A stretch of DNA of 50,367 nucleotides from a virus. Positions 38,508 through 49,598 of this stretch are shown here, piece after piece (positions within the stretch are counted from its first letter, which is position 1; each line of letters opens with the position of its first letter). The translations under genes were made by a program, and so were the position numbers. Location of the stretch: IMG/VR virus record IMGVR_UViG_3300005100_000006, positions 1 to 50,367 of that record; one strand, given 5' to 3'. Below the pieces are notes generated by a model, which saw only the letters and a program-made list of their open reading frames with translations, searched no databases and was not told the origin of the DNA.

Positions 38508-41273
38508 ATGAAATTTCCTTTGATATTGTCGTGCGGGCACACGACGCGCAAAAGCTTGGCCGATCCTATCGATTGCGGTTGTAACTCTAACCGCACTTAT
38601 TCTAGCGATGGCGACACGCCAATCGATAAGGCGCTGAATCAATTCATGGGTCAGTGGCGCAGTGTTTTAAATAACTACGGCGTTAACTTGCCAAGTAATA
38701 AAAAGCACGGCCCTTGCCCCGTATGTGGCGGTAAAGACCGTTTTCGCTTCGACGACAAAAACGGGCTTGGTACTTGGTACTGCTCGCAGTGTCCAGAAGA
38801 AAGCGGCGGCGGTTTAAAGCTTTTGTCTATGTACTTAGGCAAAACCACAATGGAAACAGCCAAAGAGCTGATAGGCGACGATATAGAGCAAAGCGTTGCT
38901 CCAAAGCGTGTGCACATGGTCAATCATGACGAAATACGCAAAGCCAACATCGAACAGGCCAAAAAAGGCGCTAAGTTGCTATTAGACAGCGCGAAGCTTG
39001 CAAGCCATCCATACATGGACAACAAAGGCTTTGGCGGTGAGTGGCTGACCAATGGCGATCCAATGATAGGGCGTGACGGTGTAACGCAACCATGTGAGCT
39101 TTTACTGGTCCCAATCTACAAATCGGGCGAACTAGTAAACATTCAGAAGATAAAAGCCGATGGCGAAAAGCGACCGCTAACCGGTGGAGATATGTCTGGG
39201 GTTTATCATCCAATCGCCGGCAAAGACAAAAACATTGCTATCGCGGAAGGCTTTGCAACGGGCATTACCATTAACAAAGCGACCGGATGGAAAACATACG
39301 TTTCTTTTAACACGGCCAACCTAGCCGCAGCGGTGAAGACCGCGAAGGATGAACACCCGAACGCGTCGATTATTATTTTTGGTGACCATGACGACTTAGA
39401 TCCAAAGCATGGCTGGCGACCTGGTGAGCATTGGGCCAATGAAGCGGCGGCCGCTTATGGCGCCGGTGTGGTCCTGCCCAATATGCAGGATGAGAAATGC
39501 GACTGGGACGACTACCGCCAAGAGCATGGCATGGACGCGCTAAAGTCGGTATTGCGTGAAAAGGTGGCGGCAGAGCTGGCAGCGATCAAGCCTAAGCCGG
39601 TGAAGAAACCAAAGCCCGAACCAAAGACAGAAACAAAGCCAGTTATTGTGGAGTCAACGCCACAAGTTGCGCCACAACTAACCCTTGAAACCGCGCCCGC
39701 GTTTGGATCTTGGAACATGACGCCACCAGCAGCCAAGCCAAAGAAAGACAACAGCAAACCAAAGTGTGTAAACGACTTGCCCGAAGGCGTGAGCCTTGAA
39801 GGTGTGGACGTAGACAACCCGCCAAGTATCGCGGGCGACATTGTGCGCTACATGCAAAAAGGCGCGCACCGTGAACTGGAAGGCGGCGCATATGCAGCCA
39901 TGGCTTTGCAGTGCTTAGCGATGGCGGGCGCGGGTATCAGTGGATTCATGGGAACCAAAACAAGCATGATCACCATCGTTCTTGGTTTGTCTGCAGGTGG
40001 TAAAGAATGGCCGCAGAAAGTTATCAAGGAAATACTGGCAGCAAGTGGGATCAAGGTATACGGTGATATTCGTTCCGATAAAGACATTATCCGATCGGCA
40101 GTGTATGACAACGGACGCTGTTTTTATGTGAAAGATGAGGCTCATTCGTTGCTTGCTTCGAACAGTAAGCAGGAAAAGCACAGCGCCAACATTCCGGCCA
40201 CGTTGATGGAGCTTGCCACAACGTCACTAATGCCAATCTCGCGCCTTCACCTTGACGAGTTCCAGGGGCAAATGCAGAACCGTATTAGCCGACTTGATAA
40301 GCAGCTGGTGGCCAAGGAAGACATCAAACTTGGTTACCACCAAGAGCTGGAAAAGGCGAAGATTGAAAAGATTGATCAAGAGATTGAGAAAATCACAGTC
40401 GAAATAAACAAGTTAACCGGCATGATGGAAGGCTTGGAAAGCGGCATAAAAGATCCATGCTTAAACTTGATCGCCCTGTCGACACCGAAAAAGCTTGCCG
40501 CCATCGTAGACGAGGACGCGATCGAGTCGGGATTTTTGGGCCGTGGTTTTATCTTCGATTGTGGCTCAGAGCGTACGCACCGCAACTTTGATTTGTGGGG
40601 CGAAAACGCGCTTGACGGCGACAAGATGCGAATCGAAAACGAAATGCTAAAAGCGCGCATTGGTGCCATTGCACAGATGGCAAGCGACACCAGCCAGAAG
40701 AAAATCGACGCGGAGTTTAACGGCAAAGAGTACAAAATGACCGCGACCAAAGAAGCCCGCCAGCTTATGTATGATATTTCGCGTCATTACGATCAATATC
40801 AATACATTAACCACCCGCGACTGGGTGCCATTTACGCGCGTTTGCCTGAGCGTGTGATGTCTGTTGCTTCAATTCTTGCTATGGATAACTTGGTGGGCGG
40901 CGATCTGGTTATTGAAACCGAATACGTTCTTTATGCTTTAAAGCTTGGCTTGTCTTCAATTGACCACCTCAACAGTAATTTAAGGGTTAATGAAGCCGTA
41001 GACGGTCAAACAATCGAGGATAAACTCGAAGGCATCAAAGAGGCGATCATCAAGCGTCTGACAGTATCCAAAAAGGATAAAGATGAAGGATGGCGCTATA
41101 AGTCCGAGCTCAAAAACTACTTGAAGCGCCAGAAGTATTACCAAGAAATCAGCAAAGAGCTTTTGGCGCATGGCCAAGACGCCATGGAAAACGCGCTTGC
41201 TGTGCTAATGGGTGAAGGGAAGGTGATCCGCCACCCTGAGAACGATAAGAAGATAAAGCGACGTTGGCCATAA
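38508..41273 (+). CDS. Primase-helicase (zinc ribbon, TOPRIM, DUF3987)
   Basis: The 921-residue protein combines a primase zinc ribbon (C70-P-V-C73 ... C92-S-Q-C95 with GGKDRFRFDDKNG between), a TOPRIM core (E247 in AIAEGFATG, D293-H-D295 in IIFGDHDD), a proline/lysine linker (about 355-420) and a DUF3987-type C-terminal ATPase half with Walker-like GLSAGGKE at 493-500. It should lay down RNA primers and unwind at the phage fork. An ACAGGG site lies upstream. It is the largest replication protein; no DNA polymerase is encoded, so host polymerase III is likely used. Confidence 0.88.
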   Translation: MKFPLILSCGHTTRKSLADPIDCGCNSNRTYSSDGDTPIDKALNQFMGQWRSVLNNYGVNLPSNKKHGPCPVCGGKDRFRFDDKNGLGTWYCSQCPEESGGGLKLLSMYLGKTTMETAKELIGDDIEQSVAPKRVHMVNHDEIRKANIEQAKKGAKLLLDSAKLASHPYMDNKGFGGEWLTNGDPMIGRDGVTQPCELLLVPIYKSGELVNIQKIKADGEKRPLTGGDMSGVYHPIAGKDKNIAIAEGFATGITINKATGWKTYVSFNTANLAAAVKTAKDEHPNASIIIFGDHDDLDPKHGWRPGEHWANEAAAAYGAGVVLPNMQDEKCDWDDYRQEHGMDALKSVLREKVAAELAAIKPKPVKKPKPEPKTETKPVIVESTPQVAPQLTLETAPAFGSWNMTPPAAKPKKDNSKPKCVNDLPEGVSLEGVDVDNPPSIAGDIVRYMQKGAHRELEGGAYAAMALQCLAMAGAGISGFMGTKTSMITIVLGLSAGGKEWPQKVIKEILAASGIKVYGDIRSDKDIIRSAVYDNGRCFYVKDEAHSLLASNSKQEKHSANIPATLMELATTSLMPISRLHLDEFQGQMQNRISRLDKQLVAKEDIKLGYHQELEKAKIEKIDQEIEKITVEINKLTGMMEGLESGIKDPCLNLIALSTPKKLAAIVDEDAIESGFLGRGFIFDCGSERTHRNFDLWGENALDGDKMRIENEMLKARIGAIAQMASDTSQKKIDAEFNGKEYKMTATKEARQLMYDISRHYDQYQYINHPRLGAIYARLPERVMSVASILAMDNLVGGDLVIETEYVLYALKLGLSSIDHLNSNLRVNEAVDGQTIEDKLEGIKEAIIKRLTVSKKDKDEGWRYKSELKNYLKRQKYYQEISKELLAHGQDAMENALAVLMGEGKVIRHPENDKKIKRRWP

Positions 41274-46267: not shown

Positions 46268-47488
46268 ATGGCAGAACAAACAACACACGCCGAGCAATCA
46301 ACCGAGCAGGCAGCGCAGGCAGAAAAATTCATCATCACAGAATTTAAATCTGGCGGTATTGACAAAGTTGAAGCGTACCTTGAGCAAGTATTCTCAGAAT
46401 ACAGCGCGAAAGTGTCCTCAGAAGTCCCCCAAATCGATTCTAAGGAGGGTCGCGCGCGAATTAAGGCTCTAGGCGCAGAAATCAATAAAAAGCTCGCAGA
46501 GAGCGATACACCGATGCGCGATTACCTTCGTGACATTAAGAAGCAGCCGAAAATTATCGAAGCAATCGCAAAAGCAAACAAAGAAAAGTTTGTAAAACTG
46601 CGCGCTGATATATTAAAACCGCTTGAGGAGGCGCAGAAAGAGCAAGACGAGAAGCTTGATTGGTTAAATGAAGTTCCAACTATTTGTGGTCAACCTGGAA
46701 TTACTAGCGATCACTTGTGCGGAATTATTCAAGAGGCAGAATCATTCGATCTATCATCCGTATGGCCAGAGCTTAAAAAGAAATTCAAAGTCGCACACGA
46801 AAACGCACTGACTACAGCCCGCGTGACACTTGAGCGAGTGGAAGCGGCAGAAGAGCAAGCGGCAGAGCTTAAACGACTTCAAGAAAAAGAAGAGGAGCGC
46901 AAGCGCGAAGAAGAGGCCAACAAGGCCGCCGAAAAAGCACGCCAGGAGGCCGAAGCGAAAGCCGCGGCTAAACTCACAAACGCGGTTAATGCTCGAATTA
47001 AAAATGAGCTGACAGTTTACCCGTACCAGACCAAGCCTATGATTCCGGCATGGTATGAAGAGCAAATCGCACACCTTAACGAAATTGTTATCGATGAAGA
47101 GTGGCAGCCGCTACAGCAAGAAGCAGCAAACGCGCTTGCATCGTCAAAGATTAACGCCAGTGAAGGCTTGAAGCTTGCCAAGGATGCAAAAGCCAAAGCC
47201 GAAGAGCAACGCAAAGCCGACGAAGAGCAGGAAAGGCGCAACCGTGAAGCAGCCGCACAGCGCCAAGCCGAAGAAGCAGCCGCAGCAGAGCGCAAGGCTA
47301 TCGAAGAAGAGCAGAAGGAAGCGGAGCGCCAGGCAAAGCAGCGTGAAGCAGACAAAAAGCACCGCACGACTATTAACCGTCGAAACCTGGCTGTTTTCTT
47401 GGCTATGGGTATCAGCGAAGCGGACGGCAAGAAGGTTATTACCGCGATTGCTAAAGGCGAGCTTCCAGACATTCGTATTTGTTACTAA
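46268..47488 (+). CDS. Coiled-coil protein of the recombination operon
   Basis: This 406-residue protein is dominated by charged coiled coils (KRLQEKEEERKREEEANKAA at about 210; QAEEAAAAERKAIEEEQKEA at about 335). The ends are helical domains with KADGKKVITAIAKG-like sequence near the C-terminus. Coiled-coil proteins often precede the exonuclease and annealase genes in phages, possibly as an accessory of recombination. ACAGGA stands nine bases before ATG. Not recognised as a known enzyme. Confidence 0.65.
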   Translation: MAEQTTHAEQSTEQAAQAEKFIITEFKSGGIDKVEAYLEQVFSEYSAKVSSEVPQIDSKEGRARIKALGAEINKKLAESDTPMRDYLRDIKKQPKIIEAIAKANKEKFVKLRADILKPLEEAQKEQDEKLDWLNEVPTICGQPGITSDHLCGIIQEAESFDLSSVWPELKKKFKVAHENALTTARVTLERVEAAEEQAAELKRLQEKEEERKREEEANKAAEKARQEAEAKAAAKLTNAVNARIKNELTVYPYQTKPMIPAWYEEQIAHLNEIVIDEEWQPLQQEAANALASSKINASEGLKLAKDAKAKAEEQRKADEEQERRNREAAAQRQAEEAAAAERKAIEEEQKEAERQAKQREADKKHRTTINRRNLAVFLAMGISEADGKKVITAIAKGELPDIRICY

Positions 47489-47497
47489 TCAACCAAC

Positions 47498-47533
47498 AGG
47501 AGCAGCCGCCCAAGGGTGGCTGTGATTACCATG
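47498..47533 (+). promoter_or_regulatory. Shine-Dalgarno plus spacer hairpin before exonuclease start
   Basis: AGGAG (47498-47502) is followed at once by a stem, CAGCCGCC (47503-47510) with GGTGGCTG (47515-47522), loop CAAG, one G-U pair. ATG (47531) comes 8 bases after the stem. Folded, the hairpin brings the ribosome site to a normal distance from ATG; unfolded, 28 bases separate them. Confidence 0.65.
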
Positions 47534-48358
47534 CAAGCAACACTAACAACACTTTTAACCAACGACGAATACCGCGCCCAGCGTGGCACCAGTAAGTCAG
47601 AGCTAGACTTGGCTAATAAATCCGTTGCACTGCTTGAGTGGTCGCGCAACTGCCCGACCGATGGCAGTCGCTCAATTGACCTTGGTACGGATGTTCATTG
47701 CGCCTGTTTGGAGCCGGACGTTTTCGCCAAGGACTACGTAAGAATGCCCGAATTTGGCAGCGGCAAGGCAGCAGCAGAGAAGGCCGAGCAGTTCAAGGAG
47801 AACATGAAAGGAAAGATCGTGCTAACAACGCCCGAATATCAACAGGTGTTAGATATGCGCGACAGTGTGCTGGCTCATCCAGTCGCTAACAGGCTGCTAA
47901 CCTCAAAAGGCATTAGCGAGGCGTCGATTTTTTCAGAAATGGAATTGCAAGACGGCTCAAAAATTAAAGTTAAGTGCAGGCCCGATCGCATTGTGGATCC
48001 TGAAGTGTTTGGACAACATATTCTGGTTGATGTGAAGAAAACCGCAGACATTGACAAGTTTCACTGGTCAGTGCGTGATTTTCGCTATCATGTGCAGGAT
48101 GCGTATTACTCGGATATTTACAAGCACACCGATATGTACCTAAAAAGCAACACGGAATCGGTTCGATTTATCTTTATCGTCGTAGGCGAAAAGCGTAGTA
48201 TTGGACGCCACCCCGTTCGAGTGTTTCAGTTAGACCGAGACACCAAAGAAACAGGCCGCAAGGCTTATTTGCAAGACTTAGAAACCGTGAACGAATATCA
48301 AGAGTTCGGTTGCGGTTTGGACGTGGAAAAGCTCGATTTGAGCGGTATTATTAAGTAA
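47531..48358 (+). CDS. PD-(D/E)XK exonuclease (RecE/YqaJ-like)
   Basis: The 275-residue protein has D152 (KCRPDRIV) and D167-V-K169 (HILVDVKKTAD), the catalytic core of the PD-(D/E)XK exonucleases, and an N-terminal SKSELDLANKSVALLEW with GTDVHCACLEP that are typical of phage RecE-type proteins (DUF3799 group). It should resect DNA ends to give single strands for the annealase encoded two genes on. ATG 47531 is preferred because a hairpin places AGGAG nearby; GTG 47516 or 47522 in the same frame are alternatives. Confidence 0.8.
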   Translation: MQATLTTLLTNDEYRAQRGTSKSELDLANKSVALLEWSRNCPTDGSRSIDLGTDVHCACLEPDVFAKDYVRMPEFGSGKAAAEKAEQFKENMKGKIVLTTPEYQQVLDMRDSVLAHPVANRLLTSKGISEASIFSEMELQDGSKIKVKCRPDRIVDPEVFGQHILVDVKKTADIDKFHWSVRDFRYHVQDAYYSDIYKHTDMYLKSNTESVRFIFIVVGEKRSIGRHPVRVFQLDRDTKETGRKAYLQDLETVNEYQEFGCGLDVEKLDLSGIIK

Positions 48359-48378: not shown

Positions 48379-48624
48379 ATGGGCGAAATGACACAGCAGG
48401 ATTATGACGACAGTTGCGATGGCTTTAAGTTAGAAGTAAATAACCTGGTGAAAAAATCAGGCGAAAACAGTCTTTCAATGGCAATTGCAAAGGGCAACAA
48501 AGAAATTACAACCATGCTTTATCAATTCCAAGAAATGATTAATCCAGCCGTTAATAAACTTGGATTAAAAACTAAATCACTATCTGAAATCTTTGGCGTA
48601 GAAATCAAGCTAACAGCTTACTAA
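48379..48624 (+). CDS. Small hypothetical protein
   Basis: This 81-residue helical protein (TQQDYDDSCDGFKLEVNNLV, AIAKGNKEITTMLYQFQEMI) sits between exonuclease and annealase. ACAGGA stands nine bases before the ATG. Its position suggests a recombination accessory, but no family is recognised. Confidence 0.6.
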   Translation: MGEMTQQDYDDSCDGFKLEVNNLVKKSGENSLSMAIAKGNKEITTMLYQFQEMINPAVNKLGLKTKSLSEIFGVEIKLTAY

Positions 48625-48640
48625 AACAGGACTAAAAACT

Positions 48641-49516
48641 ATGACTACAGCACTATCCCTAGTAGCACAAAACACAGGCGCAAGCGAAGCAGAAATCACC
48701 GAAGTAATGAGCGGTATGATTGTTTCAGCTAAAAACCAACACGGCGCAACAGCAAGCAAAGCCGAGCTCGCAATTGTCACGGGTGTGGCGGCTAAATACG
48801 GACTTAACCCGCTTGTTCGTGAAATGGCGGCGTTTGTATCTGGTGGCAAGCTGCAAGTTACAGTGATGATTGATGGCTGGTACAAGATGGTCAATCGACA
48901 GCCAACTTTTGACGGCGTAGAGTTTGACGACCACATTACCGATGGCAAGCTGACAGCCATTACTTGCCGCATGTATCTAACCAACCGCAATCGACCGGTT
49001 ACAGTGACCGAATACTTGGCAGAATGCCAAAAGACTGGCAACGGCTCAGACGTTTGGAAAAAATGGCCAAGCCGTATGTTACGACACAAAGCTTATATTC
49101 AAGCGGCACGCATGGCCTTTGGTATTAGCGAAGTGGTTGATCCAGACGAAGCGGACCGCATCAAGCAAGCCGAGCCAGTGGAGCGAGATATTACGCCAGA
49201 AAAGCCAGCGTTTAGCCTTGATTCAATCGAAGCTGATATGGTTGAATGTGGCGACCTTGAGACACTAAAAAAGGTTTGCACGTCAATTCGTCAAACGCTC
49301 GAAGGAAATGGCACTTGGGAGCAACACAAGGATCAAATCATCGAGCTAAACAAGAAGCACAAAGCCCGCATTAATTCATATAGCAATGACGTGGAAGAGG
49401 CTGAGTTTGAAGAGGTGGTCGAGCCAGAGCAGCAAGACACCAAGACAATGGCGGACGCATTCAATGCAGCAGAAGAAGAAGAAGAAGACATCCCATTTGA
49501 GGACGATGAATTTTAA
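48641..49516 (+). CDS. Single-strand annealing protein, Bet/RecT family
   Basis: The 291-residue protein has the lambda Bet pattern: a KYGLNPLVREMAAFVSGGKL stretch, MIDGWYKMVNRQPTFDGVEF, and RMLRHKAYIQAARMAFGISE. It anneals complementary single strands left by the exonuclease, supporting phage recombination and concatemer formation. The C-terminus is strongly acidic and ends DIPFEDDEF, similar to SSB tails and to the DUF669-like protein of this phage. Length is slightly above lambda Bet (261). Confidence 0.85.
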   Translation: MTTALSLVAQNTGASEAEITEVMSGMIVSAKNQHGATASKAELAIVTGVAAKYGLNPLVREMAAFVSGGKLQVTVMIDGWYKMVNRQPTFDGVEFDDHITDGKLTAITCRMYLTNRNRPVTVTEYLAECQKTGNGSDVWKKWPSRMLRHKAYIQAARMAFGISEVVDPDEADRIKQAEPVERDITPEKPAFSLDSIEADMVECGDLETLKKVCTSIRQTLEGNGTWEQHKDQIIELNKKHKARINSYSNDVEEAEFEEVVEPEQQDTKTMADAFNAAEEEEEDIPFEDDEF

Positions 49517-49538
49517 CCAGCCCCACTAATGCTAAACT

Positions 49539-49567
49539 AGCCCTATCATTCGATGGGGCTTTTTTTA
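49539..49567 (+). terminator. Rho-independent terminator
   Basis: AGCCCTATC-ATTC-GATGGGGCT with one G-U pair, then TTTTTTT. Ends the recombination operon. A promoter-like TGC-TAAACT (49530-49538) lies just before it. Confidence 0.8.
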
Positions 49568-49598
49568 TTTGCAGAGCACATCTGTACATGGGGGCATT

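Follow-up and report, generated by a model that had tools for sequence, protein, structure and literature searches.

Gene order and features of the junction

The window, meaning the whole stretch of DNA analysed here, is a 50,367-base virus record of a marine phage, in which an exonuclease VIII-like gene stands upstream of a gene for a RecT/Bet-like annealing protein, likely the partner of the exonuclease. The exonuclease matches Pfam DUF3799 (E 1.2e-17), and its closest described relatives are from Vibrio phages, mainly of the Nahant collection, with ~62-73% identity; one study (PMC6029569) places two of these Vibrio relatives among myoviruses whose Virfam type is unassigned. The features of this region are:

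46268..47488, + strand: upstream gene, 406 aa, coiled-coil-rich, PHROG 1376, with stop codon TAA at 47486-47488
47496..47502, + strand: Shine-Dalgarno (SD) box ACAGGAG, directly abutting the stem, ACAGGA being the ordinary ribosome box here; AGGAG is 47498-47502
47503..47510, + strand: hairpin 5' arm CAGCCGCC
47511..47514, + strand: hairpin loop CAAG
47515..47522, + strand: hairpin 3' arm GGTGGCTG, which covers in-frame GTG 47516 and reaches the first base of GTG 47522
47523..47530, + strand: 8-nt spacer TGATTACC, from stem to ATG
47531-47533, + strand: exonuclease start codon ATG
47531..48358, + strand: exonuclease VIII-like gene, PD-(D/E)XK, DUF3799, PHROG 412, starting at ATG 47531
48379-48624: ORF of 81 aa that separates the exonuclease gene from recT, with its own ACAGGA-N9-ATG site
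48641..49516, + strand: RecT/Bet-like annealing protein gene, with an ordinary ACAGGA-N9-ATG site

The 81-aa ORF has no family match in Pfam or PHROGs. After recT, at 49517-49568, lies a terminator-like hairpin, AGCCCTATCATTCGATGGGGCT, followed by T's, and its lead, TGCTAAACTAGCCCTATCA, is common to relatives.

The original prediction described a ribosome site far from the exonuclease ATG, with a stem filling most of the gap, and this geometry holds. Read from the sequence, AGGAG stands 28 nt from ATG 47531, and a stem of eight pairs (one G.U) with a 4-nt loop, at 47503-47522, takes up 20 nt of this distance, so that 8 remain. The two in-frame GTG codons that had been named as other candidate starts, GTG 47516 and GTG 47522, are present 13 and 19 nt 3' of AGGAG.

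Predicted fold of the leader

RNAfold predicted exactly this 8-pair stem, plus one outer G.U pair, with an energy of -14.8 kcal/mol for the window hairpin alone. In the 42-nt gap the fold had a z score of -3.2 and was equalled by none of 200 dinucleotide shuffles; the excess was weaker in an 81-nt context (z -1.68), in which 11 of 200 shuffles were as good. The 8-bp stem includes neither AGGAG nor ATG, and the outer G.U can take only the last G of AGGAG. In longer context partial pairing of AGGAG and ATG is predicted in the window, and the five bases 5' of the stem are predicted unpaired just half the time. Besides the in-frame GTGs, the region near the exonuclease start contains GGGUGG within the stem, ~11 nt off, and GUGAU by the ATG, any of which might compete with the proposed site. 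The window had no match in Rfam at gathering thresholds.

The hairpin was the best fold in the window and in the other 9 of 13 sequences tested. When the longer RNA was folded, three class A sequences (L011, L003 and L002) gained 1.9-5.2 kcal/mol from an alternative to the hairpin, in which UUAGGUGGCC, a segment of the hairpin, pairs with AUGGCUAACCUAA in the AUG region of the exonuclease; this may make the leader two-state in part of class A. Another fold was better by 1.6 kcal/mol in one class B sequence (L015).

Distribution of the hairpin among related phages

The junction was read in 16 phage records and in 14 of 17 IMG/VR exonuclease loci (L034-L036 were left out), the set of relatives being taken without hits H11-H13 and H16. 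Left out of the distinct sequences were duplicates at the junction (L013, L014 and L018, equal to L008, and L009, equal to L007), loci from the same record or identical (L026 to L025, L028 to L019 and L029 to L020) and contigs of other loci (L023, L024, L059 and L060, of L002 and L003, and L061, of L001).

The arrangement of SD, stem, 8 nt and ATG is present in seven of the 16 records (L008, L011, L013, L014, L017, L018 and L019), and six others (L007, L009, L010, L012, L015 and L016) have the class B form, which keeps the hairpin without an SD on its 5' side. A different hairpin arrangement is found in two (L021 from Aeromonas and L022 from Erwinia), and Serratia Eta (L020) has no clear hairpin. 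The IMG/VR loci gave six with the SD-stem-ATG form (L002, L003 and L025-L028), one of class B (L001), three with unlike sequence near the end of the coil gene (L004 and L005 with a stem, L033 with a weak one) and one that is Serratia Eta again (L029); in L030-L032 no strong hairpin was found in the 51 nt folded. This gene junction carries the hairpin in related phages of both Vibrio and Shewanella.

Nine distinct sequences share the layout of the window: the window itself, L008, L011, L017, L003, L002, L019, L025 and L027. All nine have GGAG or GGGG flush against the stem base, and the distance from stem to ATG is 8 nt in eight and 9 nt in L025. The six distinct class B sequences have 11 nt between stem and ATG, with GGA after the stem in five and GGU in L015. 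In Erwinia Gungnir39 and Aeromonas 62AhydR11PP the coil-gene junction also carries hairpins, with an ATG 12 and 22 nt on, respectively.

The gene that follows the hairpin is the exonuclease in six of the nine shared layouts, another small ORF in the remaining three (L017, L025 and L027), and the exonuclease in only two of the six class B sequences; small genes other than the exonuclease follow it in L001, L007, L010, L016, L017, L025 and L027. A protein-family search on the small genes adjoining the hairpin gave zero matches. The gene 5' of the hairpin differs too (L002, L012, L001 and L027). Since both neighbours vary, the hairpin belongs to the junction and not to one gene.

In every class B sequence (L010, L016, L012, L015, L007 and L001) an ORF of 3-4 codons opens directly at the hairpin and ends in a stop codon that shares bases with the ATG of the following gene (AUGA or UAAUG); this ORF is possibly a coupling leader.

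Pattern searches found class A in 8 of 17 records and class B, without mismatch, in 7 others. Each of these 15 records has one junction copy and the two classes never occur together, while the window and Shewanella phage 1/41 have their own hairpin variants. A second copy of the element was sought and discarded, as the class A and B patterns occur once per genome, at the junction, and the matches elsewhere carry two mismatches. The exact class B pattern had zero matches in viral_contigs, and scans of genome_contigs confirmed no bacterial prophage relatives.

Comparison of stems

The nine shared-layout sequences fall into three unlike stem groups: that of the window (CAGCCGCC/GGUGGCUG), class A (CGGCYGC/GUGGCCG) and a Shewanella-type group (GGGCG.../...CGCYC; L019, L025 and L027). 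Stems were anchored by hand and the arms grouped by our own judgement, because a MAFFT alignment across classes put the 5' arms wrongly; pairs were then counted by script. Pooling of the window, class A and class B gave 12 distinct stems with 0 mispairs. One pair is compensatory, being A-U in seven stems and G-C in five, and three further pairs differ solely through G.U, so a true double change occurs at one pair only and most substitutions are transitions tolerated by G.U. The loops of the six distinct class B hairpins are UUCG (three), UCCG, UACG and UUUG, all closed by C-G; UNCG loops are a stable type. Predicted fold energies across the hairpins range from -7 to -15 kcal/mol.

Ribosome-site spacing, start codon and chance occurrence

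The window contains 32 ACAGGA boxes on its two strands, of which 21 were counted as having an ATG (0-12 nt on, with an ORF of at least 40 aa). The distance was exactly 9 nt in 13 of these 21, and in four relatives it was exactly 9 nt in 7 of 11, 6 of 11, 4 of 11 and 4 of 4 cases, making 9 nt the modal ACAGGA-ATG spacing in all five genomes examined. The exonuclease site of the window reads ACAGGA-G-[20-nt hairpin]-TGATTACC-ATG, which becomes N9 once the hairpin is left out, and that of Shewanella phage 1/41 reads ACAGGA-G-[19-nt hairpin]-GTAATTTT-ATG, again N9 with the hairpin skipped. In our view no other single argument for spacer folding is as strong as this match to the usual spacing of the phage, which supports an accommodated, or split, ribosome-binding site.

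The start codon itself is conserved. Fourteen aligned exonucleases begin at most 1-2 codons from the ATG of the window, the exceptions being rows cut at the match edge (L001-L004). Exonucleases that do not adjoin the hairpin keep this ATG, their proteins beginning MANLTT or nearly so, and have an ordinary SD; such an SD-like stretch is found at the ATG of L001, L007, L009, L010, L016 and L017, in which a gene lies between hairpin and exonuclease. The conserved start is therefore the ATG and neither of the GTGs. In Shewanella phage 1/41 (L019 2464-2500) there is also an ATG within the hairpin, 9 nt after AGGAGG, which opens a 13-codon ORF out of the exonuclease frame and is a competing start.

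A scan of both strands for an SD, a stem of at least 7 bp, 5-11 nt and an ATG found one site in the window, that of the exonuclease. Ten Markov random genomes scanned in the same way had 0-3 sites each (mean 1.3), so the SD-stem-ATG pattern by itself is within chance genome-wide. As about one such pattern per genome is expected by chance, the case rests on location and conservation: the location at a real gene start, together with its conservation, is beyond chance.

Alternative explanations

The exonuclease could instead start at GTG 47516 (or 47522), 13 (or 19) nt from AGGAG on an unfolded leader, which would add the prefix VAVIT. This prefix runs, as GTG-GCN-GTN-ATN-ACC-ATG, in an uninterrupted frame into the ATG in the window and class A, even in L011, where AAA replaces ACC. 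It is, however, confined to these sequences, being absent from class B and L019, while in L017 it would be joined to a different protein; GTG 47516 also lies within the stem, and exonucleases elsewhere begin at ATG with ordinary SDs. A GTG start is accordingly the least credible of the readings considered. Scarcely more probable is that the hairpin acts as an off-switch by hiding an SD in its own 3' arm (GGGUGG). This arm would pair with the anti-SD somewhat better than AGGAG does in the window (-7.4 vs -6.6 kcal/mol), and at -9.9 kcal/mol in class A, but its use would require melting a hairpin of -7 to -15 kcal/mol. Moreover, among 203 starts counted in three relatives only 3 use a spacing of ~11 nt, two of them belonging to the genes in question, and the motif is absent from the Shewanella-type arms (L019, L025 and L027).

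An unlikely alternative, though better founded than these two, is that the hairpin is mainly an intercistronic element, acting in mRNA processing or stability or as a protein-binding operator, and that its placement between SD and ATG is incidental or secondary. This would agree with its retention in the six distinct class B sequences, with the Erwinia and Aeromonas junction hairpins at their differing distances from the ATG, with the variety of small genes that follow it in seven loci and with the other intergenic hairpins that relatives have 5' of further genes. It leaves unexplained the flush GGAG or GGGG and the 8-9 nt of all nine shared layouts, as well as the modal N9 recovered in two phages with different hairpins.

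A probable accommodated ribosome-binding site

An accommodated (split) ribosome-binding site at the junction 5' of the exonuclease, in a phage group unrelated to those in which such sites are described, is the reading we prefer, with a probability of about 0.75. That the hairpin would bring the distant SD to the exonuclease ATG, as originally proposed, is supported by the nine layouts, the modal spacing and the conserved ATG. The 30S subunit would bind ACAGGAG at 47496-47502, and the stable hairpin at 47503-47522 would keep its fold within the mRNA path, with the 8 nt on its 3' side setting ATG 47531 at the usual distance of the phage. What is observed here is the set of sequence elements, a predicted fold that is conserved, and a match to the spacing of the genome; from these we infer that the ribosome uses ACAGGAG and ATG 47531 with the hairpin folded, that breakage of the stem would lower exonuclease synthesis and that translation would depend on folding. 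Such dependence most likely means a permanently folded spacer rather than a switch, as expected from the high stability of the hairpin (-14.8 kcal/mol), which should be folded at the temperatures of sea hosts.

Spacer folding is known in T4, as the original prediction stated, and is established for genes 38 and 25: structure shortens the SD-AUG distance from 22 to 5 nt in gene 38 and from 27 to 11 nt in gene 25, destabilising changes reduce initiation, and only close T-even phages have the arrangement of gene 25 (PMC3014915). Gene 25 resembles the present junction in its distant SD (27 nt in T4, 28 here) with a hairpin between, in its folded distance (11 nt in T4, 8 here) and in its intercistronic position (gene 26-25 in T4), conserved in close relatives. 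It differs in that other genes and another phage group are involved, that the stem here is flush with the SD, that a sister group here lacks the SD 5' of the same hairpin, and that the T4 case is based on reporter and DMS data and the present one on sequence comparison and predicted folds. Gene 38 likewise has a folded spacer, though in another gene and with a shorter folded distance than here. The features of T4-type accommodated sites found at this junction are thus a distant SD, a stable hairpin, a functional folded distance and conservation. The SD-sequestering hairpins of T4 genes e, soc and 49 are a different arrangement, in which the helix takes up the SD and/or AUG that is used; in the window SD and ATG are outside the 8-bp stem.

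The E. coli thrS leader is an autoregulatory operator. According to one account, the split thrS ribosome-binding site carries a hairpin that the ribosome accommodates without unfolding it (PMC3936740), as proposed here. On the same account the thrS hairpin is assigned to the structured standby region 5' of the SD, whereas in the window it is between SD and AUG, and class B is closer to the thrS layout.

The class B sequences keep the hairpin without a 5' SD, so spacing is probably not its sole role; a second role could be, for example, guarding or processing of the intergenic mRNA, or protein binding. A broader and more tentative proposal is that the recombination operon carries the hairpin as a conserved junction module, whichever gene follows, around which the ribosome site has moved (5' in the window, class A and the Shewanella-type group, 3' in class B). 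Besides folding the spacer, the hairpin might then be a site at which the exonuclease-RecT messages are regulated or processed.

Few worked cases of ribosome-site spacer folding exist, those reviewed being T4 genes 38 and 25, and the largely open-access literature searched on such sites and phages gave, among the matches listed, no description of this hairpin. The present junction would add a second, unrelated lineage, whose nine sequences, three stem groups and SD-displaced sister group form a natural comparison series. Gene callers and translation-rate models assume a linear spacer, and junctions like that of the exonuclease are a warning in this respect.

Other hairpins in related phages

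Several other hairpins were noted in relatives. One of them, GCCGCUUUCGGGCGGC, is similar to the class B stem and lies ~20 nt 5' of helicase-region genes in L056 (minus strand, near 40715) and L058 (near 36729); it was not found in the window. L056 (28534), L057 (26660) and L058 (27532) each have, just 5' of a gene, an SD buried in a hairpin of 10-12 bp, GCUAUUCC..GAGGAAUAGC. More distant phage contigs (L062 and L064-L088 except L083; ~2656-2672) have an ORF of 43-56 aa after the coil gene, encoding M..YAIAGGA.. and similar sequences in the 14 loci read, with an SD just 5'. In many of these loci the ATG lies within a long hairpin closed by the ORF's own coding sequence (for example CCCACGAUG..CAUCGUGGG and CACCCAUG..CAUGGGUG), which looks like a conserved start-codon-hiding hairpin.
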